A DNA stretch of 64,000 nucleotides from Tissierellia bacterium (lineage in GTDB: Bacteria; Bacillota; Clostridia; Tissierellales; Peptoniphilaceae), in assembly GCA_012519495.1 (NCBI GenBank), contig JAAYQA010000008.1, positions 1-64,000 on the forward strand, in the 5' to 3' direction. A program made the position numbers and the translations under genes. Under the pieces are notes generated by a model. It made no database searches. It saw only the letters and a list, made by a program, of their open reading frames with translations, and had not been told where the DNA came from. Position 1 is the first letter of the stretch. Every line of letters begins with the position of its first letter. Positions 21,963-35,850 of the stretch are shown here, in pieces.

Positions 21963-21995
21963 AGAAGAACATCATAGTAAAGGAAGTTGGAAAAT

Positions 21996-23162
21996 ATGTA
22001 TCACATAAAGGTTTATAATGCGATTGCCCATGAGGCGTTGGAACGGTTGGATGCAAATGCGTTTGCGATTACGGATGCGGATCCGCAGGGGATCTTATTG
22101 CGCAGTTACAATCTGCGGCAGGAGACTTTGCCGGATTCTTTATTGGCGATTGCGCGGGCCGGCGCGGGGACCAACAATATTCCAGTGGAGGAATGTGCCG
22201 GTAAGGGGATTGTGGTATTCAACACACCCGGTGCGAATTCCAATGCGGTGAAGGAGTTGGTGATCGCTTCGATGATTATTGCGGCAAGGAATCTGGTTTC
22301 AGCCAGTCGCTGGGCGCAGACTTTGCAGGGGGATATAGAGAAGCAGACCGAAGCGGGCAAAAAGCAGTTTCGGGGACAGGAACTCACCGGCAAAACGATC
22401 GGCATTGCGGGCATGGGTGCGATCGGCAGCCGGCTGGCGCGGGATTGTGTCAGTCTCGGGATGCGGGTGCTGGCGTATGATCCGTTTTTTACCGGTGATG
22501 CCCCCTGGAAGAATTCCGCTTCGGTGCGGCAGGTGGACAAGCTGGAGCTGCTGGTGCAGGAAAGCGACTTTATCACATTGCATGTTCCGTACAATAAGCT
22601 GAATCACCATTTGATGAATAGGAAAATGCTGAAAAAGATGCGTCCGGGTGCGGTGCTGCTGAATTTTTCGCGCGGACCATTGGTAGATGCGGACGCACTT
22701 TTGGAACAGATCGGAAAAGGAACGGGGAACCGCTACATTACCGACTTCCCGGAGGAGAAGCTGATCGGACAGGACGGGGTACTGCTGTATCCGCATTTGG
22801 GTGCTTCCACGGGCGAAGCCGAGGTAAACTGCGCCATGATGGCGGTGGAATCGCTGACGGATTATCTGGCAAACGGAAATATTAAGAATTCGGTGAACTT
22901 TCCGGATGTGCATCTGGACGGCCTTTCCGTGTACCGTTTCTGCATTTTTAATCGCAATATTGTGAATATGATCGGCAAGATATCGACCGCCCTTGCCGAA
23001 CGGCAGATCAATATCGAACATATTGTGAACCGAAGCAAAGGCGACTACGCCTATACCATGGTGGATATAGGGGATGTGGATCCGGCGGTTGTGCAGGAAG
23101 TAACGGAGTTTTTGCGGGAGCAGGAAGGCATCGTACGCGTGCGGGTAATTGGAGGACAATAA
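21996..23162 (+). CDS. serA: D-3-phosphoglycerate dehydrogenase
   Basis: First step of serine synthesis from glycolysis. The 388-residue protein starts at ATG 21996 after AAAGGAAG. It has the D-2-hydroxyacid dehydrogenase fold with GKTIGIAGMGAIGSRLA, a catalytic arginine in NFSRGPLVD, and a histidine in LYPHLGASTGEAE. A C-terminal ACT domain (about 315-388) is the usual serine-sensing region. There is no serC or serB next to it; it stands between two repeat copies. Confidence 0.92.
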   Translation: MYHIKVYNAIAHEALERLDANAFAITDADPQGILLRSYNLRQETLPDSLLAIARAGAGTNNIPVEECAGKGIVVFNTPGANSNAVKELVIASMIIAARNLVSASRWAQTLQGDIEKQTEAGKKQFRGQELTGKTIGIAGMGAIGSRLARDCVSLGMRVLAYDPFFTGDAPWKNSASVRQVDKLELLVQESDFITLHVPYNKLNHHLMNRKMLKKMRPGAVLLNFSRGPLVDADALLEQIGKGTGNRYITDFPEEKLIGQDGVLLYPHLGASTGEAEVNCAMMAVESLTDYLANGNIKNSVNFPDVHLDGLSVYRFCIFNRNIVNMIGKISTALAERQINIEHIVNRSKGDYAYTMVDIGDVDPAVVQEVTEFLREQEGIVRVRVIGGQ

Positions 23163-23204: not shown

Positions 23205-23375
23205 CAAGGTGAGTTCCGGTCCGTTCGGCGCAGGCCGCGTATTTCATAACGAGCGTGAGCGGAGCGATACGCTAAGTTATTTCCTCCAGCACGCAAACGA
23301 TCCTGTAACTGTCAATCGAAGGAGAAACTTCTTGAAACGTTTGCGTGCTGGATTTCATTGCGCCGTAGGCGCCTT
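23205..23375 (-). repeat. Palindrome-rich intergenic element, copy D
   Basis: This short copy has the complete inverted-repeat module: CCAGCACGCAAACG (23286-23299), 38-bp core (23300-23337), CGTTTGCGTGCTGG (23338-23351), then ATTTCATTGCGCCGTAGGCGCC. The right end encodes the last five residues of the minus-strand gene at 23355. A simple hairpin GGCACC-CGAA-GGTGCC at about 23168-23183 lies between serA and this copy. Confidence 0.85.
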
Positions 23376-24389
23376 CAGGGATTCGACGATTGTTTCTGCG
23401 AAGATTTGTGCCTGGGCGGGCAGTGCGGGGTTTTCTTTTACGGATTGGACATTGTGGGCGCGGACTTCCCAGGTGAAGTGCGGGGGAAGGGCGAAGGTTT
23501 TGTTGATGTGCAGGGCACTGATGAGCTGGCGGCTCAGGAGTTCGGCGCCGCTGTGGCCGGTTACGATGAGGGAGTAGAGGTTTTTGTCGAAAAACTTGCG
23601 TTTGCGAAACAGCGCCGTCATGCGATTGATGGCGCTTACGAAGTTGGCGGGGAGCATATCGTTGTAATTGGGCGTAAGTATGAGGATGCCGTCGGCGGCT
23701 TCAATGGAGGGGTAGAGCTTTTCTACGACATAGTCTTCGTAGATGCAGCGGGAGGCCTCTCCCATTTTTTTGCATAGTTCGTAGGCACATCCGCGGCAGT
23801 CGCGGATGTTTTCGTTTCCGAAAGAGAGCAGATCAATCTGTATGCCGCTAAGATGCGGGCGGATGAGATCCCAGATCGATAGCGTGGCGGACGCGTCGGG
23901 TTTTCCGATGGTCCAGACGGACAGGCGCGGGTTTTCTTTTCGTACAATCTCTTGTTCCAGTCGCCGGGCCAGGCTGTTCAGCTGATCCTGCAGGATTTCT
24001 GCAGGGCTTTTATGTAAGGGTGCGCTGAGCGGGGTGAGATTGTCCAGGTTTTTGGCGGCTTCCACGAGCGATCGGCCGGGCATACGTGCACCGGCCTTAT
24101 TGGCGTGATAGAGAAGCTGTACGCCGGCTTCCCGCGTGTGGAGTGCGGTGGGGCTGTATACGAAGACACCCATTCTTGTGCCGGGTGGAAACAGACCGCA
24201 GTCTTCGATCCAGCGGAGCAAAGCGGGGTCGTAGCTGTGCGACTGCAGATGGGCCGCCAAAAGGATGCGCCCGTTCGGTGTGGACAGGTCGCATTCTTGC
24301 GGGGTGCAGACGGTGTAGTCTGCAAAGGCGTTTTGCAGGGCGCGTTCGATCGTTTTGGGGAAGGAATGCGCACAGAGGAGTTGTTTCAT
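23355..24389 (-). CDS. Flavodoxin-fold oxidoreductase with a cysteine cluster
   Basis: 344 residues, taken from the ATG at 24389 that overlaps the upstream stop (ATGA). The C-terminal half looks like an NADPH-dependent FMN reductase/flavodoxin: LSVWTIGKPDAS, then LILTPNYNDMLPANF typical of the FMN site. A cluster CRGC-x4-C-x8-C near residue 213 resembles iron-sulfur flavoproteins. The N-terminal ~180 residues match nothing I know. It is last in a three-gene unit; its final residues (APTAQ) come from repeat copy D. The role is probably redox, the partner unknown. Confidence 0.7.
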   Translation of the reverse strand: MKQLLCAHSFPKTIERALQNAFADYTVCTPQECDLSTPNGRILLAAHLQSHSYDPALLRWIEDCGLFPPGTRMGVFVYSPTALHTREAGVQLLYHANKAGARMPGRSLVEAAKNLDNLTPLSAPLHKSPAEILQDQLNSLARRLEQEIVRKENPRLSVWTIGKPDASATLSIWDLIRPHLSGIQIDLLSFGNENIRDCRGCAYELCKKMGEASRCIYEDYVVEKLYPSIEAADGILILTPNYNDMLPANFVSAINRMTALFRKRKFFDKNLYSLIVTGHSGAELLSRQLISALHINKTFALPPHFTWEVRAHNVQSVKENPALPAQAQIFAETIVESLKAPTAQ

Positions 24390-25477
24390 ATTTGTACCTG
24401 CCTGAGTATGTGTACGGTTTCTTCCAGACGCCGGTAGAGGGCGCCGGGTACGGTTTGGTGTTCGATCTGTAAATACCCGTCTTTCTGACGGACGCGGCAG
24501 CCGAAGTAAATATCCTTCAGGGCGATGGATCCATAAAACCATTCTCCGCGCAGCCAGGCCAATAGCGTATAGGCGCCGCTGGAAAGACTCGGTCCGTAGA
24601 AGGGTTTTTTTCCGTGGGCACGGATAGTCAGATTGGCGGTTTTGGCGGCCTCTGTGAGGGCCTTTGAGCGCGCGTCGTCATAGTCGGTGAGGGAATTGGC
24701 AATCCAGAGTCCTTCGCCGTGCGGGCCGTAGGCGCGGCCTTCGTGAAGGAACTCCGGTGCGATTTCTTTGGCATAAAAGGCGGCCCGTGCGGCCATGACC
24801 CCCAGTCCGAGGCCAATGATCCGCTCGCGCGGGAAGAAGTCCAGCTCTTTGGCAGAAAAACTGCACAAGGCGTCGACCGGGTCCGACAGGATAAAGAGGG
24901 TGCCCGTAAAGGCGGACGCCCGCAGGAGCTGCAGGTATTCCGACAGGATCTTCCGATTGGCGGCAAACTGCATCATGCGGACATCGTCTCCTTCTTTGAG
25001 GACTGCGGGAACGCCGGCTGATGCCGCAAAGACCAGCGCGTCGCATTCGGTCAGCCGCTCTTTTTCCACTACGTATACATCCGGCATCGGCGTTTGCAGG
25101 TCGGGCGGGCGGCATTGGAGCAGTTCCATGCGCATGGCTTCGGCTTCTTTTGTATTTCTGGCATACAGGCCGATCTGCAGATCATTCTGTCCCATGAGGC
25201 GTAGCCCGAGGGCGCAGTGTGCGCCGACATCGCCCAGCCCGATGATATGAATGCGGGGTTTGTGTACAGGGGCAGGGGCGGTCGCAAACGCATGGGTAAA
25301 CAGAAGCTGTCCTTTTTCTGCATAGGGCTTCAGTTCCGGCACAAAGGTGTAGGGTATGCAGGAAGCGACGGCATCCAGCGACTCATCGCCTTCGGCCTGC
25401 AGGGGGTGGGTCAGCAGAAATTGCGACTTGGCCTGTTTGGGGTCACGGTTTCCCCGGATTCGTATGGTTTTATTCAT
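24386..25477 (-). CDS. Lactate/malate dehydrogenase-like protein of unknown substrate
   Basis: 363 residues. A Rossmann motif IHIIGLGDVGAHCALGL begins near residue 75, after a ~70-residue extension. ILSDPVDALCSF parallels the NPVD segment of LDH/MDH, and YGPHGEGLW parallels the catalytic-histidine GEHGDS segment. Other LDH landmarks, such as the substrate-loop arginines, are not clear, so the substrate cannot be called. It overlaps both neighbours (8 and 4 bases), implying strict co-expression with the 1597-residue protein and the flavodoxin-like protein. Confidence 0.65.
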   Translation of the reverse strand: MNKTIRIRGNRDPKQAKSQFLLTHPLQAEGDESLDAVASCIPYTFVPELKPYAEKGQLLFTHAFATAPAPVHKPRIHIIGLGDVGAHCALGLRLMGQNDLQIGLYARNTKEAEAMRMELLQCRPPDLQTPMPDVYVVEKERLTECDALVFAASAGVPAVLKEGDDVRMMQFAANRKILSEYLQLLRASAFTGTLFILSDPVDALCSFSAKELDFFPRERIIGLGLGVMAARAAFYAKEIAPEFLHEGRAYGPHGEGLWIANSLTDYDDARSKALTEAAKTANLTIRAHGKKPFYGPSLSSGAYTLLAWLRGEWFYGSIALKDIYFGCRVRQKDGYLQIEHQTVPGALYRRLEETVHILRQVQI

Positions 25478-28400
25478 CTTCGCCGGAGCTTCGTATGATG
25501 CTCGCCTCCAGTCGTTTCAAGAGGTGAATGTCGTTTTTAATGGATGCGCTGACATGCAGATCCATATCCTCGACACCTTTGTAGTCGGGAATGCGCGGAT
25601 GATGCAGGACGTCAAAAATATCGCGCAGCGATACGGTTTTTCCGTTCAGATCCAGATACACCCGCTCCAGCTGACTGAACAGCTGATGCGCGTTTTCCAG
25701 ACAGATGCGGCTGAAGGCATACAGCGCTTCATTGGTCCCTTTTTTGATAAACGAAGGCGACACATACGGCAGGAGCATATTGATGGTGGGTATCAGGGTG
25801 CCGTTAACCAGGCGCGTGTCCACCATGTCGCCGCCGATATAGGGATACAGGTCGGATTCCTTGAACCAGTAGCGCAGGCGGGGCACAAAGTAGCAGTAGT
25901 CGACTTCCAGATTTTCCGCCATGGCAAACTCCAGCCCTTTCATGCTGAGGATACCGACAAACATTTTTTCGATCCCGACGCCATTTCTCTCCAGTGCGGG
26001 CTTGACCACGCGGATCCGGTAGCCTTTGTGCAACAGATCGTCGACGAGAAGAACCGGTTTGTCGAACGCGTTGATGATTTTGCACTGATCGTCCAGAGGC
26101 AGATAGTACGGGAACGATTTGATCGTGAAGTTTTTGATGCTTTTACTGAAGGTTTTTTCCGTGTGTATTGTTTTGGTGATGGTATTGGGGACGATTTCTC
26201 CGTTGAGGTGTTCGCCGAAGGGCACGCACATGGCGGGGCCCAGCTTCCGGGGTTGTGTGGGTACAACGGGCACGCCGTTGTAGGCGGTGATCCGTTCGAT
26301 CAGCTTCTGATTGATCATGCTGCGGGTAAAGCTGAGGATCAGCGTGTTGGGGAAAAGCTCGGTGAGGGTTTCTTTCATGCGCTTGCGGTTTTCCCGTATG
26401 ACCTGGGTGACCGACGGATGTGCATTATAGGGTTTTTTGATGAACTTTTCGATATCCAGATTCAGCGTAACAGGATTGGAGGAGTCCACGAGCATGGTGT
26501 CGTGGGATTCTTCTTTGGCCAGATAGCGGAATCCCGACTGGGTCAGCAGATCGGTGTATTCTTTGTTGTAGCGCATTTTGTTGGTAAACAGGATATTGTC
26601 AAAGTTGTGGGACACAATATGCGCAAAAGCCTCGTTGACCAATTCTTCTCGCAGCGAATTGAACCGCCGGCTGATAAAGACACCATGCAGATAGGCGATC
26701 GGGCCGCGGGTGCTCTCCCGGATTGTGGAGATGGTCGGGATATGCCGGAAGTAGTAGTACAGGTCGATGATTTCGATTTTTTCGTACAGCACCACACAGA
26801 GCAGCTCGTCGGTGTCGGTGGCAATAAAGCGCAATACAGTGGGCTTTTCTTCCCGCACATGCACCATAATGTCTTCTTTGGTGACCGAGGTGATGAAGTC
26901 GAGGTCTGACTGCGTGATTTCCCGCGAGGCTTTGAGCGTGTATTGCGAGCTGGTGACCGTGGTTTTGAACGGGTCGTCTCGTTTGTACAGCTTGTGTTCC
27001 ATGATATAGTCGCGCACCATGGGATTGACCAGATGGCTGATATCGCGATTGTTGTCGATGGAGTCGCGGATAAGGGTAGAGCTGATAAACTGAAGGTCCA
27101 GATCCAATGAGACCAGTTCATAAGGACCGGTGACTTTTTCCTGTATGGCTTTTTCGGAATGTTCGCCCCTTTGCTGCCGGCGCATATAAATGAGATGCGG
27201 CAGGGCGCGCAGCGTTTCGTTGTGCCGGTAGGCGCTCGCGTTTTCCACGACATCGGCGCCGACAAGCAGCGTGAGGGTTTTACCGGCAAACAGTTCTTTC
27301 AGCGTCTGCATATTTTTTTCGTTGGCGATATTCATTTGGATATCGGACGGGAAGATATACACATTGCGTTCCGCACTGACCGACATTTCCACGATTTTTT
27401 CGCGCATGAGATAGGGCAGGGGTTTTTTCGACCAGGAGAATTCATCGATCGATACATAGACTTCGTAGCCGAGATTGCGCACGTCGCGGCAGATCGCCAG
27501 ATGCCCGAGCGAAAACGGGTCGAAGGTGCCGGGAAAGAAGGCGACTTTGTCGATATTGGGGATGACAATTTCCCCGCGTGTGAGCTGGTATTCGGTTATG
27601 CATTTGTAGATCTGGTTTAAGGAATAGGCATTGCTGAGATAGGTAAAGCCTTCGTCTTCTGTGGTCAGAAGGGTGAGAATCTTCTTGCCGTATTCGCGCA
27701 GATAATAAGCCTGGGTTTCCTGATAGATGCGGCGGGAGTTGAAAATATACGAGCCCAGTACGGCAAATGCCTCGGTATGCACAAGCAGCTTGGGTGAGGA
27801 AATTACAGAGATCAAAAGTCCGATCAGGCGATTGCGCCGCTTGTTGTGCAGGGTGGCGTCCTCGTTTCCTTTTTCAATGTATTCGTCGTAGAGTTCGATG
27901 GAGCGGCCCAGGGTATGCAAAATGGCGTGCAGGGTTTCCAGCCCGTCGGATTTCAGTTTGACGTCGAAGTCGTCCAGGATCTCGTTGAGTTCCCGCGGTT
28001 CCAGATACAGAAGGATTTCTCCCAAAAACTTGGGGATCATGCGGACAAAATTGTAGTCGTTCATTTCGAGCCCGCGCAAGAGTTCAATGGCGATGTCGTT
28101 GACTTCGGCCGGCTTCATATGCCGTACCAATTGTACGAGATGCCGACCCGCCTGTTCGCGGACAATGTCAAATTCCGATACTTTCAGCAGATTGCAGTAA
28201 TGGAACGCCACATGCAGAAGATGCGCTTCGTGTTCGGTGGCGGCCATGTAGAGGATTTCGATATTGATCTTCTTGACGATCCAGGGGGTTTCCGTTTTCA
28301 GATTGCTGAGGAAAATGCCGGCCGTACTGCTTTGCGGCGAACGGAAGCAGGCCGAAAGCGGTTGCGGCAGGGGGGCAGTTTCGTCGTAGCGCTGTGCAAT

Positions 28401-30263
28401 TTTATACAGCAAAAAGCTCTCCGGAAGGAGATCGCAGGTGTCTTGTGTGGGGATCAGCGCCTGGGCGGCTTCCTGCATACGCGGCCGCAAGGCGAGCTTT
28501 CCTTCGCTCCAGTGCAGGATGTCGAGTACAACGAGGCGGGTTTCTTCTGTGCCGTGATGCAAAAGATCCAGCAGGAAGTCTTCCACGCGTTTGATTTCTT
28601 CTTCGGTCAGAATTTCCAGCGGGGCGGAAAAAAGCGTCCGCGCCAGGATGATGCGGGTTGAGTCGGAGAAGTCGTATTCGGGCTTGAACCATTCCATATA
28701 CAAAGACGGATACGGCGTGTCCTTGCCGCGGATCAGGCGGAAGAGCTCTTCGTGAATATTGATCAGATTGTATTGCAGGCGTTCCTTATGATCCAGCAGA
28801 TTCACATTGGGAAAGAGGATGGTATGCAAGAGATCGTGATAGGCTTTGGTTCCCTGCAGGGTATCGTAGGAAACAGAGGGCGGGATCTCTTTTTTGTAGT
28901 CGTCGTCGTAATTGGCCACCAGATAACCGATCAGGCGGCTGGCGTCACGCCGGATGTCGTCGGCGTCGGCCAGCAGCAGATCAAACAGAAAGTGCATGAC
29001 CATCTTTTTTTGTTTCAGCGTAAAATAGGAAGAATACTCGTATAAAAGATCCAGATACTGCCGCAAGGTGAGCTTGTCGTTTTCACCGCGCACGGCTTCC
29101 ATCAGCGCGTTAAAACTGTCGTCGCGGGAGAAGCGGTGCATGACGGTCAGATTGTGGTCGATGGAGAAGTCGATGATATTGCGGATAACCTTGTCGCCTT
29201 CCAGGAGGGCAAAGTGCGAGAAGGGGTCTCTTTTGTAGGACGGGTCGGGGGCTTCGTTCATATCCACGGAAATACCGAGCCGTTTCAGATACACCTCAAA
29301 GTCCACCAGGCGCGCGTAGACGCGGGTGTAGCGGTTCTTTTTGGCTTCGTCCACATTGTCCAGCTTGTCGAGGATGACCTGATACGATGCGTCGAGCGAG
29401 ATCACCGACATAACATCCTGTCCGTGCTTGCGCAGGTTTTTTACGCGAAAATCGGCGTAGATCAGGATGAGCGCTTCTATCGTGAGATTGTAAAGCTCCA
29501 GGTCCCAGGTGGAATGATTCGTGGCGATGTTTCCCATTTTTTCCAGGCCGCGTGCATCGTACCATTCATAGGTGTAAAAGTAGTGATAATAGGCGATCCG
29601 GCGGGCTTCATCGCCTTTGACACCGTATTTGCCGATGTCGTGGCAGAGCGTGGCACCTGCCACAAGGCCCAGGTCGATCGGGATGTTTTGCGCCTTTAGC
29701 TGGCGGGCGATATGCATCGACAGCGCGTTCACCAAAACGACATGCTGTATGGTGTTAAACCCGCGCACGGAAATGTCGATCTTCATCATTTCGTAGACGA
29801 AGTTTTCTGTGAATTCGCGCTTGAAGGTAAAGTATTCGGGATGAATGTCGGGATAACGTTCTTCGTCGTCGGTCAGAAGCTGCATGGGGTGTTCGACGAG
29901 TTCGGAATCGGCGGATTCCGCTTCCAGCTCGTTGACATAGCGCAGCGTATCCAGAAACAGACGGTGATACGGGATATTTTCCACAACGACGCGGTCGGAA
30001 AAGCCGCGGAAGTTCAGATGGATCGTGTATTCGAAAATTTCTGTGAGCCAGTCGATGACGTCTTTGTTGTAGATGCCCGCATAAAGGGGGTGAAACAGCT
30101 CTGCCAGCGACAGGGCGTCAAAGCGTTTGGCATGCAGCATGCGCGCAAACTGCGCGTCAAAAGCGGGGTCGTTAAAGAAGTTTTCCAGACTCTCGTGGTA
30201 TTTATCAAAAGATGTTCGTCTGAGGGCGTGTTCGAGTACTTGTCTGAGTCCGTGATGGGGCAT
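25470..30263 (-). CDS. Giant multidomain protein: HD domain, nucleotidyltransferase, phosphoribosyltransferase-like
   Basis: A 1597-residue soluble protein with a GGAGG site before ATG 30263. An HD-phosphohydrolase region lies at about 170-330 (LCHDIGKYG near 206). Helical, HEAT-like sequence fills about 400-880. A NadD/CoaD-type nucleotidyltransferase lies at about 905-1085, with FFPGTFDPFSLGHL and ISSTLIRD, both active-site motifs. About 1110-1290 may be GNAT-like (weak). A phosphoribosyltransferase-like domain near 1350-1500 has the PRPP-loop-like VLLVDDLLHKGYR at about 1402. No signal peptide or membrane segment. Annotators may call such proteins cytidyltransferases; I know of no demonstrated function. 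Domain content suggests nucleotide-cofactor chemistry, but this is inference. Confidence 0.8.
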   Translation of the reverse strand: MPHHGLRQVLEHALRRTSFDKYHESLENFFNDPAFDAQFARMLHAKRFDALSLAELFHPLYAGIYNKDVIDWLTEIFEYTIHLNFRGFSDRVVVENIPYHRLFLDTLRYVNELEAESADSELVEHPMQLLTDDEERYPDIHPEYFTFKREFTENFVYEMMKIDISVRGFNTIQHVVLVNALSMHIARQLKAQNIPIDLGLVAGATLCHDIGKYGVKGDEARRIAYYHYFYTYEWYDARGLEKMGNIATNHSTWDLELYNLTIEALILIYADFRVKNLRKHGQDVMSVISLDASYQVILDKLDNVDEAKKNRYTRVYARLVDFEVYLKRLGISVDMNEAPDPSYKRDPFSHFALLEGDKVIRNIIDFSIDHNLTVMHRFSRDDSFNALMEAVRGENDKLTLRQYLDLLYEYSSYFTLKQKKMVMHFLFDLLLADADDIRRDASRLIGYLVANYDDDYKKEIPPSVSYDTLQGTKAYHDLLHTILFPNVNLLDHKERLQYNLINIHEELFRLIRGKDTPYPSLYMEWFKPEYDFSDSTRIILARTLFSAPLEILTEEEIKRVEDFLLDLLHHGTEETRLVVLDILHWSEGKLALRPRMQEAAQALIPTQDTCDLLPESFLLYKIAQRYDETAPLPQPLSACFRSPQSSTAGIFLSNLKTETPWIVKKINIEILYMAATEHEAHLLHVAFHYCNLLKVSEFDIVREQAGRHLVQLVRHMKPAEVNDIAIELLRGLEMNDYNFVRMIPKFLGEILLYLEPRELNEILDDFDVKLKSDGLETLHAILHTLGRSIELYDEYIEKGNEDATLHNKRRNRLIGLLISVISSPKLLVHTEAFAVLGSYIFNSRRIYQETQAYYLREYGKKILTLLTTEDEGFTYLSNAYSLNQIYKCITEYQLTRGEIVIPNIDKVAFFPGTFDPFSLGHLAICRDVRNLGYEVYVSIDEFSWSKKPLPYLMREKIVEMSVSAERNVYIFPSDIQMNIANEKNMQTLKELFAGKTLTLLVGADVVENASAYRHNETLRALPHLIYMRRQQRGEHSEKAIQEKVTGPYELVSLDLDLQFISSTLIRDSIDNNRDISHLVNPMVRDYIMEHKLYKRDDPFKTTVTSSQYTLKASREITQSDLDFITSVTKEDIMVHVREEKPTVLRFIATDTDELLCVVLYEKIEIIDLYYYFRHIPTISTIRESTRGPIAYLHGVFISRRFNSLREELVNEAFAHIVSHNFDNILFTNKMRYNKEYTDLLTQSGFRYLAKEESHDTMLVDSSNPVTLNLDIEKFIKKPYNAHPSVTQVIRENRKRMKETLTELFPNTLILSFTRSMINQKLIERITAYNGVPVVPTQPRKLGPAMCVPFGEHLNGEIVPNTITKTIHTEKTFSKSIKNFTIKSFPYYLPLDDQCKIINAFDKPVLLVDDLLHKGYRIRVVKPALERNGVGIEKMFVGILSMKGLEFAMAENLEVDYCYFVPRLRYWFKESDLYPYIGGDMVDTRLVNGTLIPTINMLLPYVSPSFIKKGTNEALYAFSRICLENAHQLFSQLERVYLDLNGKTVSLRDIFDVLHHPRIPDYKGVEDMDLHVSASIKNDIHLLKRLEASIIRSSGEDE

Positions 30264-30444
30264 GGGGATCCTCCTGTGGTGCTTCGTAATAAAATCGTTT
30301 GTTCTATTTTATCACAGCCCGGCCGATATGTTGATATCCATCACCGCTTCGGGGTGTGGTAGATCCTTACGAAGTAAGCGTTTTGTAAGACGGCTGTCTG
30401 TATACGAATGCGGTTTTATGGTAAACTATGTCCGAGGTGTAACT

Positions 30445-30954
30445 ATGACGGAAATACTGAATGGACTGGAGCGTTTTTTCTCCACGAATATATTTGGAAC
30501 CTTAAGTTTGTATGATGTAATATCCACGGGACTGAAGTATGTCTTTGTGTTTATCATCTACTACTTTATCTTCCATATCATCCGGCTCATTTATCTGGAT
30601 ATTCGCGCAATCGACCGGGACGAAACCCCGTCGGAGGTCTATTTGCGCCTGATTACCCGGCCGGAGACGCTGAACTTTAAAGTAAACGAGATTTACTATC
30701 TGAATCCGCAAAACAGTATCGGTCGGGGCGATGAGAATTCCATCGTTCTGAAGGATCGCTTTATTTCCAAACTGCATGCAAAAATCGCGGAGCAACGGGG
30801 CGCCTATGTGCTGGAGGACTTAAAGTCCGCCAATGGTACCTTTGTGAACGATCGCCGTATTTTGCAGCCCACGCGGCTGAACAATCGCGATGTAGTGCGG
30901 CTGGGCGATGTGGAACTGCTCTTTGTAAACGAGGTGCACGACCATGACGACTAA
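30445..30954 (+). CDS. Membrane-anchored FHA-domain protein
   Basis: 169 residues from ATG 30445. One transmembrane helix (about 27-48, FVFIIYYFIFHII) is followed by a cytoplasmic forkhead-associated domain (about 75-160) with GRGDENSIVL, S-K-LHAKI and SANGTFVND, the phosphothreonine-binding signature. It overlaps the RodA/FtsW gene by 11 bases and precedes a transpeptidase. FHA proteins next to rodA-pbp genes usually link Ser/Thr kinase signals to wall synthesis. No kinase is in the window. Confidence 0.88.
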   Translation: MTEILNGLERFFSTNIFGTLSLYDVISTGLKYVFVFIIYYFIFHIIRLIYLDIRAIDRDETPSEVYLRLITRPETLNFKVNEIYYLNPQNSIGRGDENSIVLKDRFISKLHAKIAEQRGAYVLEDLKSANGTFVNDRRILQPTRLNNRDVVRLGDVELLFVNEVHDHDD

Positions 30955-32182
30955 ACAGGTGACCGAGCGGTCGCTTCGACGCTCGGTTTTTCTATTTCAG
31001 GCACTGGCGCTTTTTTTGGTGATTATTTACGATGCGGAGCGCATGACGCTGAACCGGCTCTATTTTGCCCTGCTGCTGGTCGGGGTTACCTATATTGCCA
31101 ATTTGCTGGTGCGCAAGCTCTTAAAGGGCGAACCGTATCTGTTTATTATTGCGACCTTTTTGCTTTCGATCGGAACGATTATGATTTTCCGCCTGGATTC
31201 CACATCCGGCTTCAAGCAGATTATATGGATCCTGGCGGGTTTCGTGATGTATTTTTTGAGCTATCTTGCCATGCGCTTTATCCCGAAGCTGGACAAGCTG
31301 ACGTTTTTGTATTTCGGGCTGGCCGTGCTTTTGTTTGTTGCAACGCTCGCCGTCGGACGGGAGATCAACGGCGCACGCAACTGGATTATCGTCGGTCCGA
31401 TATCGATACAGCCGACAGAGATTTCCAAAATCCTTCTGGTTCTGTTTATCGCCTCCTATTACAGTCGCTATCATCAGTTTGAAGATTTGCGGGTCAAGAA
31501 TTTTCCGGCCGGAAACTATCTGCTTTTGGGCTGTGTGTATTTTCTGATGGGGCTGGCGGTTTTGCAAAAGGATCTGGGCACGGTGCTGATTTTTGCGGCG
31601 ATCTTTCTGGCCATGCAGTATATCTACGAGCCGAAGCGCAAAATGATTTTGTTTAATTTCTTGCTGATGGCTGGCGGCGGTACGGTGGCCACGCTCTTGT
31701 TTTCCCATATCCGCGTGCGCTTGAGCACCTGGATCAATCCGTGGGAATATATCGACACGATCGGCTATCAGATCACGCAGTCCTTGTTTGCAATCGCATC
31801 GGGCGGCTTTTTGGGCACGGGCATCGGTCTGGGCATGCCGCAGACGATTCCTCTGGCGGAGTCGGACTTTATCTTTGCCGCCATCTGCGAAGAGATGGGC
31901 ATACTTACGGGCATGGGCATTATCATGCTGTTTTTGCTTTTGTGCTACCGCAGCTATAAGATCGCCTTCCGGCAGACGGACTTCTTCAGCCGGGCAGTGG
32001 CGATCGGTCTGGCAACGATGTTTGCTGCACAGAGCATGATTATCTTCGGGGGCGTACTCAAGCTGATCCCCCTGACCGGGATTACCATCCCCTTTGTAAG
32101 CTACGGCGGCAGTTCCATGCTGGCAAGCTTTATCGCCCTGGGGATCCTGCAGTGCCTGTCGGAAGAGAGGGAGCGCGCCTAA
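30944..32182 (+). CDS. RodA/FtsW/SpoVE family peptidoglycan glycosyltransferase
   Basis: 412 residues, about ten membrane helices. SEDS motifs are visible: NGARNWI, PTEISKILLVL, and the C-terminal PLTGITIPFVSYGGSSML. SEDS proteins polymerise lipid II and pair with a class B penicillin-binding protein, encoded next door with a one-base overlap. The sequence alone does not separate RodA from FtsW; the context favours an elongation or general wall role. Confidence 0.92.
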   Translation: MTTKQVTERSLRRSVFLFQALALFLVIIYDAERMTLNRLYFALLLVGVTYIANLLVRKLLKGEPYLFIIATFLLSIGTIMIFRLDSTSGFKQIIWILAGFVMYFLSYLAMRFIPKLDKLTFLYFGLAVLLFVATLAVGREINGARNWIIVGPISIQPTEISKILLVLFIASYYSRYHQFEDLRVKNFPAGNYLLLGCVYFLMGLAVLQKDLGTVLIFAAIFLAMQYIYEPKRKMILFNFLLMAGGGTVATLLFSHIRVRLSTWINPWEYIDTIGYQITQSLFAIASGGFLGTGIGLGMPQTIPLAESDFIFAAICEEMGILTGMGIIMLFLLLCYRSYKIAFRQTDFFSRAVAIGLATMFAAQSMIIFGGVLKLIPLTGITIPFVSYGGSSMLASFIALGILQCLSEERERA

Positions 32183-33582
32183 TGGAAACAAAAAGAACCG
32201 TCCGCCTGGTGGCAGCCGTCAGCGTGCTTTTTGTGCTGCTGGTTGTGTATATGACGTATTTTCAGATTTTTAAGGCCGACAAGATTGCGATGAACTCGTA
32301 TAATCAACGGCTCTCTGTCGATGAAAACGCCGTGGTGCGCGGCGATATATACGACAAAAACCGCGTTTTGCTTGCCACGAGCTATAAGGATGAAGAGGGC
32401 GACAATATACGGGAGTATCTGTATCCGGTCTTGTATGCGCATGTGATCGGCTACAATCATGTGTCGTACGGGAAAACCGGATTGGAGCTTGCGTATAATA
32501 ATGCGCTTTTGAATGTGGACACGCAAAAAACCTTCGGGCAGCTGAAAAACCTGATTGCCCCGACGGGCAAGGGAAACGATCTGGTGCTTACGATCGACAA
32601 TCGTCTGCAGGAACGGGCCTATCAGCAGCTGGAAGGGCACAAGGGTTCCATTGTGCTTTTGAATTACCAAACCGGGGAAGTGCTTGCCATGGCAGGCCGC
32701 CCTTCGTTTAACCCCATGACGCTGGATGCAAACTGGGATGAATTGCTCTCTGATGCGGACAGCCCGCTGATCAACCGTTCCACACAGGGTCTGTATACGC
32801 CGGGTTCTTCTTTCAAAGTCATCACGGCGGCAGCCATACTGGAGAATCTGACCCGGGAAGAGCAGATTTATGAAGATCGGGGCGAAACCGTCATCGACGG
32901 CTATACGATCAAGAACTATCTGAATGAATCCTTCGGCGAGATCGATCTGGAAACGGCGCTGATCAATTCGGTGAATACTTATTTTGCCGACAAGGGGGTG
33001 CAGGTGGGGGCTTCCGCACTGCAAACGACCGCGCGTAAGTTTATGATGAATCAGGCGATCCCGTTTGATATTCCCGTGGCGGAGTCCATATCGCCTTTTG
33101 CCACCGAACGCGGGCTGACAGAAATTGCCGCGGCGTCGTTCGGGCAGGGAAAAACCCTCGTGACGCCTTTGCAGATGGCTCTGGTTATTGCATCGATTGC
33201 CAATGAAGGAAAAATGCCTGCACCGCTTCTGGTGGATCGCGTGATCAGCCCGGAGGGCGAGGTCATCACACAAAAATCACAGTCGACCCTGTCGACCGTG
33301 TTGCCGGAAGGCTATGCGAAGGAATTAAAAGATGATCTGATTGATACAGTAAACGCTGGCACCCGCGCCATGATCGAAGGAAAAATTGTCGGCGGGAAAA
33401 CCGGCACCGCAGAAACCGCCTCGGGTTTGACGCACGCATGGTTTATCGCGTTTCTGGAAGAGGAGGATCTGCCGCTGGCCGTTGCCGTCGTCCTGGAAGA
33501 AGACGACAGCCTGGGCGGACGGACCGCAGCGCCCATAGCCCGGGAAATGTTTCTGGACGCCATGTATCTCGAAATCCCCTAA
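32182..33582 (+). CDS. Class B penicillin-binding protein (transpeptidase)
   Basis: 466 residues starting at ATG 32182. One N-terminal membrane anchor (about 9-27) and a short dimer region precede the transpeptidase domain. The catalytic triad of motifs is complete: SSFK (STQGLYTPGSSFK), SVN (ALINSVNTYF) and KTG (VGGKTGTAET). It is the expected partner of the preceding SEDS protein and resembles PbpA-type enzymes adjacent to rodA. There are no PASTA repeats. Confidence 0.93.
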   Translation: METKRTVRLVAAVSVLFVLLVVYMTYFQIFKADKIAMNSYNQRLSVDENAVVRGDIYDKNRVLLATSYKDEEGDNIREYLYPVLYAHVIGYNHVSYGKTGLELAYNNALLNVDTQKTFGQLKNLIAPTGKGNDLVLTIDNRLQERAYQQLEGHKGSIVLLNYQTGEVLAMAGRPSFNPMTLDANWDELLSDADSPLINRSTQGLYTPGSSFKVITAAAILENLTREEQIYEDRGETVIDGYTIKNYLNESFGEIDLETALINSVNTYFADKGVQVGASALQTTARKFMMNQAIPFDIPVAESISPFATERGLTEIAAASFGQGKTLVTPLQMALVIASIANEGKMPAPLLVDRVISPEGEVITQKSQSTLSTVLPEGYAKELKDDLIDTVNAGTRAMIEGKIVGGKTGTAETASGLTHAWFIAFLEEEDLPLAVAVVLEEDDSLGGRTAAPIAREMFLDAMYLEIP

Positions 33583-35662: not shown

Positions 35663-35667
35663 GTTTT

Positions 35668-35838
35668 TGTCTTTGAGAGTAAACAGATTTAAATGAAACC
35701 GACATCTTTTATAAGGGATTGTGACTGTTCTGATTTGAATGGCAAGCCCCCTTGCGAGGGGACGTCAGACATCTTAGACAACGAACCCACCTTCACGTAC
35801 TGAAGGTTTTCATTTGTCGTTTACCGCTCAAAGATACT
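35668..35838 (+). ncRNA. ssrS: 6S RNA (RNA polymerase regulator), predicted
   Basis: A ~170-nt non-coding transcript whose two ends pair: GTCTTTGAG...GTAAAC at the 5' side (about 35668-35684) with GTTTAC...CTCAAAGA at the 3' side (about 35818-35834), leaving a long rod with an unpaired middle and an apical GC-rich arm (CCCCTTGCGAGGGG). That architecture, the length and the strong solo promoter match 6S RNA, which mimics open promoter DNA. Family assignment is by shape, not alignment. Confidence 0.7.
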
Positions 35839-35850
35839 AAGCTTCGGCTG

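Follow-up and report, generated by a model that had tools for sequence, protein, structure and literature searches.

The described systems closest to the one reported here are fusions of the adenylyltransferase NadD with the HD-domain protein YqeK, in which YqeK clears faulty analogues of nicotinic acid adenine dinucleotide (PMC9426524). In the present study, we analyzed a 64,000-nucleotide stretch of DNA (hereafter the window) from a Tissierellia bacterium, which carries a unit of three genes on the minus strand. Gene 1 (25470..30263) encodes a 1597-residue protein of five modules according to its open reading frame (ORF), Pfam, relatives and models; gene 2 (24386..25477; ORF, Pfam and alignment) encodes a 363-residue homologue of the NAD (nicotinamide adenine dinucleotide)-binding L-lactate and malate dehydrogenases (LDH and MDH), and gene 3 (23355..24389; ORF, Pfam and relatives) a 344-residue protein of the flavodoxin fold (FMN_red). 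The three genes are a genuine unit, inherited and kept together. Gene 1 resembles NadD and the NadD-YqeK fusions in its fold, in its adenosine triphosphate (ATP) motifs and in joining an adenylyltransferase and a dinuclear HD domain within a single chain. Unlike these fusions, it has the HD domain first and the NadD-like domain 600 residues later, with HEAT repeats between them; its acceptor motifs are replaced, the Arg of HD phosphatases is missing, and GNAT-like and phosphoribosyltransferase (PRTase)-like domains are added. It also has two redox partner genes and sits beside a canonical NadD in the genome. The PncB-NadD branch of NAD salvage, in which a phosphoribosyltransferase step precedes an adenylyltransferase step, would share this logic with gene 1, whereas the PRTase-like domain of gene 1 resembles type I, is fused and has a non-canonical loop for phosphoribosyl pyrophosphate (PRPP). 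All domains come from known superfamilies and the whole system fits no nameable kind; full-text searches of open-access papers for the domain combination found no description of such a system, which agrees with the statement of the initial annotation that none with this composition had been described.

About 85,000 species genomes were scanned for relatives of gene 1, and at least 539 were found in public genomes (Tissierellia, Clostridia and Atribacterota). The best 80 of these were retained, giving 81 loci with the window; they come from Tissierella, Sedimentibacter, Alkaliphilus, Caloramator, Acidaminobacter, Anaerotignum, Anaerovorax, Natronincola and others, and from Atribacterota. The LDH-like gene lies next to gene 1 on the same strand in 74 of the 81 loci and the flavoprotein gene follows it in 66, so the arrangement is far beyond chance. 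Loci that depart from this order mostly lie at contig ends or hold a 5-kb insertion; in two of them (L119 and L120, genomes G423 and G319) an ammonium-transporter-like gene on the opposite strand and glutamate-synthase-like genes stand between genes 1 and 2. In these two loci a gene upstream of gene 1 resembles a riboflavin transporter, and in locus L102 a flavin mononucleotide (FMN) riboswitch precedes it. In one genome, gene 1 also occurs a second time at full length (L121, G444:C9:107844-112610), about 35 kb from the complete unit and with neither gene 2 nor gene 3. In the window, ORF analysis confirmed that the three genes overlap on the minus strand, by 8 bases between genes 1 and 2 and by 4 bases (ATGA) between genes 2 and 3, as had been noted initially; the ATGA-type overlap is common among the relatives' loci. 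The start of gene 3 is the ATG at 24389, in agreement with its relatives, and the mechanical ORF list puts it at 24542.

The initial annotation had called the three genes a unit, and the survey for their co-occurrence bears this out. We surveyed 196 genomes belonging to the same class as the window. Seventeen of them have gene 1, and genes 2 and 3 both occur in one identical set of 16 among these; the remaining carrier of gene 1 is an incomplete assembly in which gene 1 itself is cut at the contig. The probability of an identical set of 16 is about 10^-23 under independence, a figure that shared ancestry weakens, and none of the 196 genomes had only gene 2 or only gene 3, an observation that stands despite shared ancestry. 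Furthermore, the gene trees have 26-42 of 63 splits in common, against at most 3 when shuffled; the window protein clusters with relatives from Tissierellales, and all six Atribacterota fall into a single clade. Of five genomes sampled from the family to which the window belongs, four lack the unit, and it seems to have been inherited for the most part vertically, with frequent loss.

The NadD-like domain (residues 905-1096 of gene 1; 26976..27551, minus strand) was placed by Pfam, NCBIfam and a structure match. AlphaFold2 models of the two halves of gene 1 were built on 46 relatives and gave a predicted local distance difference test (pLDDT) of 88.5 and a predicted template modelling score (pTM) of 0.89 for the C-terminal half, and 86.7 and 0.87 for the N-terminal half. 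Residues 905-1096 have the fold of Mycobacterium tuberculosis NadD (4rpi_B; Z 19.9, root-mean-square deviation 2.5, 185 residues). In the gene 1 protein, matches above the Pfam cut-offs were HD (171-271) and CTP_transf_like (909-1067), and the sole NCBIfam model passed was that of the general adenylyl/cytidylyltransferase domain (TIGR00125). The NadD model TIGR00482 scored 63.7 bits in the protein (68 in the genome search), below its cut-off of 112.45, and the CoaD model TIGR01510 scored 37.6 bits, below 103.3. The ATP-site motifs GxFxPxxxxH (here FPGxFDPxxxxH) and SSTxIR are kept in 80-81 of the 81 relatives, P911, G912, F914, D915, H921, S1061, S1062 and R1066 are conserved in all 81, and the first His of HxGH is Ser or Thr. 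The NadD acceptor motifs are replaced: PPHK by DEFSWSK (940-946), SYT by NIAN with a four-residue deletion, and Trp by Y1012; the alignment set gene 1 against Bacillus subtilis NadD and the canonical NadD of the window's genome. The replacements, NIAN included, are as invariant as the ATP motifs, DEFSWSK and Y1012 being found in 81/81. Judged by these motifs, the ATP site is intact and the acceptor site is family-specific. Such conservation, of the ATP residues as well as of DEFSWSK and Y1012, argues for a working enzyme that uses a different acceptor.

A housekeeping role of gene 1 as NadD or CoaD was rejected. At other sites in the window's genome there are a NadD-YqeK fusion and a CoaD, both canonical, and gene 1 is therefore not the housekeeping enzyme of this organism; of the 18 carriers examined, 17 have canonical NadD above the cut-off, the exception (G350) being perhaps an assembly gap. 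The NadD-like part of gene 1 is prone to misannotation as an enzyme of NAD biosynthesis.

The HD domain (residues 140-330; 29274..29846, minus strand), recognized by Pfam, models and conserved residues, has the ligands H174, H208, D209, H227, H250 and D271 invariant in 81 of 81 relatives. The set H...HD...H...H...D is the signature of dinuclear HD enzymes, YqeK among them (PMC8177086), and it is complete in the gene 1 domain. Direct profile comparison of this domain with the YqeK of the same genome, using a single-sequence template, gave no signal. Between the HD and NadD-like domains lies a HEAT-repeat solenoid (residues 380-900; 27564..29126, minus strand); Pfam HEAT was matched in 29 of 46 relatives, and these residues match HEAT proteins in structure (VIA-align, best Z 15.9). 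This solenoid, together with the GNAT-like module, had been overlooked when the composition of gene 1 was first described.

The GNAT-like domain (residues 1107-1263; 26475..26945, minus strand) was found by structure match and alignment. It has the GNAT fold (Z 15.7 over 143 residues against 8zt3), and the alignment shows that the acetyl-coenzyme A (acetyl-CoA) pyrophosphate loop Q/RxxGxG/A is missing, with NLxQIxLTETL in its place. The type-I-PRTase-like domain (residues 1285-1485; 25809..26411, minus strand) is suggested by the model and by weak profile matches. The confident model has the alternating order of strands and helices of a type I PRTase; Pfam PF00156 had no match in the window protein and weak matches in 22 of 46 relatives (best E 3.6e-4), and profile comparison gave E 2e-4 with a probability of 45%. 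One uracil PRTase structure was matched (E 3.9e-4) with a poor superposition, the query being a multi-domain model. K1364, H1367, D1408, G1414 and R1416 of this domain are present in 81 of 81 relatives, and D1409, the partner in the acidic pair, in 75 of 81. A PDB sequence search with the HD, PRTase-like and GNAT-like domains and with gene 3 found no significant match. The motifs quoted at the outset, LCHDIGKYG, FFPGTFDPFSLGHL, ISSTLIRD and VLLVDDLLHKGYR, were all found in the gene 1 protein. Of the domain claims based on them, those of a nucleotidyltransferase (NadD fold, ATP site intact), an HD domain (of dinuclear type) and a PRTase-like domain were supported, but the PRPP loop is non-canonical and the HD domain is without the phosphatase Arg.

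Gene 2 belongs with the L-lactate/malate dehydrogenase superfamily: its protein matches Ldh_1_N above the Pfam cut-off, aligns with these dehydrogenases, and has R167, R231 and H253 as equivalents of LDH Arg109, Arg171 and His195 in 75-76 of 76 relatives. Unlike these dehydrogenases, it has an extra N-terminal region, scores 40.9 bits with the L-lactate dehydrogenase model TIGR01771 (cut-off 303.55), has lost Asp168, and carries Asp (D199) at the position of LDH Asn140 in nearly all relatives. Asp199 may substitute functionally for the missing Asp168. The initial annotation had called gene 2 LDH/MDH-like; its active site is rearranged relative to LDH. Gene 3 is like the iron-sulfur flavoproteins and FMN reductases (Isf, PF03358) in its FMN_red domain, which is above the Pfam cut-off, and in its four invariant Cys (C198, C201, C206 and C215), and the flavodoxin-like, Cys-containing character first assigned to it holds. 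The compact Cys motif of Isf is CX2CX2CX4-7C; gene 3 shares the FMN_red domain with Isf and differs from it in a spacing of CX2CX4CX8C and in an added N-terminal region of about 160 residues without a Pfam match. These four Cys could hold a 4Fe-4S cluster.

Our leading proposal, tentative and a little short of an even chance, is that the unit makes or turns over, in PRTase-to-NadD style, an NAD-like, adenylylated compound that its two redox proteins use. The three genes would then be one self-contained biochemical system in strict anaerobes living on amino acids, and gene 1 would hold the logic of pyridine-nucleotide salvage in one polypeptide on a HEAT scaffold. The PRTase-like domain would bind or make a base-ribose-5'-phosphate, and the NadD-like domain would join to it the adenosine monophosphate (AMP) part of ATP, giving an NAD-like dinucleotide, or would adenylylate a similar acceptor. 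The metal-dependent HD domain would cleave a wrong or surplus product, analogous to YqeK with NadD, and the LDH-like protein and the Cys-containing flavoprotein would perform the redox chemistry by which the NAD-like compound is supplied, used or recycled. The unit could also turn out to be a variant of pyridine-nucleotide salvage. A bolder version, which we consider unlikely, is that a single PRTase/adenylyltransferase polypeptide in hundreds of anaerobes makes and recycles a dinucleotide redox cofactor other than NAD (base-ribose-PP-adenosine) for its own dehydrogenase and flavoprotein.

Several observations weigh against the synthesis or turnover of an NAD-like compound. The loop VDDLLHKGYR of the PRTase-like domain has HKGYR where a T/S-G-x-T phosphate loop is expected, and a distant relative (L004) carries SDEVINRG there. 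An Arg just before the first His is reported to be strict in HD phosphatases (PMC8177086); it is missing from gene 1, where T171 is found in 74 of 81 relatives and Arg in none. The catalytic-dyad Asp168 of LDH is Met228 in gene 2 (75 of 76 relatives). In addition, the loci scanned showed no NAD-, PRPP- or FMN-type riboswitch of the unit, the one FMN riboswitch preceding a neighboring transporter-like gene.

The unit might instead serve metabolite-damage control and NAD(P) maintenance, gene 1 breaking or re-adenylylating faulty pyridine dinucleotides or by-products like diadenosine tetraphosphate (Ap4A), and the redox partners reducing or oxidizing a hydroxy acid or nucleotide that is damaged or a dead end. 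Proofreading of this sort is performed by NadD-YqeK fusions (PMC9426524), gene 1 likewise has HD and NadD-like domains in one polypeptide, and the carriers live by fermentation, with a heavy flux through NAD(H). However, the carriers already have NadD-YqeK or NadD, the acceptor site of gene 1 is unlike that of NadD, and its HD domain is without the phosphatase Arg; we rate this role as rather improbable. A signaling or sensing role, in which the NadD-like domain makes an adenylylated signal, the HD domain degrades it, and the PRTase-like and GNAT-like domains sense ligands (PRPP, purines or acyl compounds) and control the redox proteins, would suit the GNAT-like domain without its CoA loop and the non-canonical PRTase loop, both of which suggest binding over catalysis. 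HD domains often degrade signals (PMC8177086), and a HEAT scaffold fits a multi-protein complex. Against it, the PRTase-like pocket residues are conserved as strictly as in an enzyme, and only the two redox genes, with no signal-output gene, are consistently linked to gene 1; we rate such a role, too, as rather improbable.

The distribution of the carriers bears on a third alternative, a catabolic or electron-transfer step dedicated to the fermentation of amino acids (glycine/serine, Stickland): the LDH-like protein would oxidize or reduce a hydroxy or oxo acid, the Fe-S flavoprotein would carry electrons and gene 1 would activate the substrate by adenylylation. Full-length GrdB (glycine/sarcosine/betaine reductase B, PF07355) is present in 16 of 17 carriers versus 10 of 179 non-carriers in the class (Fisher p 7e-16, ignoring kinship), and SelA in 16 of 17 versus 17 of 179 (p 1.5e-13, likewise ignoring kinship); indolepyruvate oxidoreductase, a general marker of amino-acid oxidation, is nearly everywhere (144 of 196 class genomes). 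In Tissierellales, the genes immediately upstream of the unit encode serine dehydratase. Against this, in a wider set of 52 carriers a substantial GrdB match was found in 33, and 18-19, including all six Atribacterota, have no GrdB; other neighbors are not conserved, and the marker statistics ignore shared ancestry. Such a step is quite unlikely as the function of the unit. A strict link to glycine reductase was rejected as a rule, about a third of the wider carriers being without GrdB; the unit is one of amino-acid-fermenting anaerobes, many of which, but not all, have glycine reductase, and its tie to glycine reductase and selenium genes is close within the class and looser beyond it. Anti-phage defence was rejected, since the three proteins have no PADLOC match, no viral home and housekeeping neighbors.

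The search for further conserved partner genes yielded none, the neighbors (serine dehydratase, NfnAB-like, glutamate dehydrogenase) being lineage-specific. A serine link of the unit is possible. In the window, a SerA-like 2-hydroxyacid dehydrogenase gene with an ACT-like end (21987-23162, plus strand) is convergent with the unit. On its other side, FHA-domain and FtsW-like genes and a likely penicillin-binding protein (PBP) gene (30262-33582, plus strand) adjoin the unit divergently. Several Tissierellia loci, and Acidaminobacter, have this group close to the unit as well (clusters 7, 10 and 11), and the chromosomal site of the unit is therefore conserved there. Farther away, the window holds a 6S RNA (RF00013, 52 bits; 35665-35840, plus strand) that overlaps the start of an ORF listed at 35752, and T-box leaders (RF00230; 2028-2236 and 7966-8192, plus strand) before the genes at 2288 and 8477. 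A plasmid or mobile element as the home of the unit was rejected; the single PLSDB match is the 2.6-Mb Acetoanaerobium noterae replicon NZ_CP154629.1, which is probably a chromosome. This replicon (pTPELB2, filed there as a plasmid and without gene annotation; L132) carries a full-length gene 1 relative of 41.6% identity.

The active sites of gene 1 are almost invariant across two phyla, and the system, apparently undescribed, occurs in no fewer than several hundred anaerobic species. Nucleotide redox coenzymes are very few, and a new cofactor, if true, would be one more. Even without a new cofactor, the unit points to an undescribed step in the metabolism of amino-acid-fermenting anaerobes.

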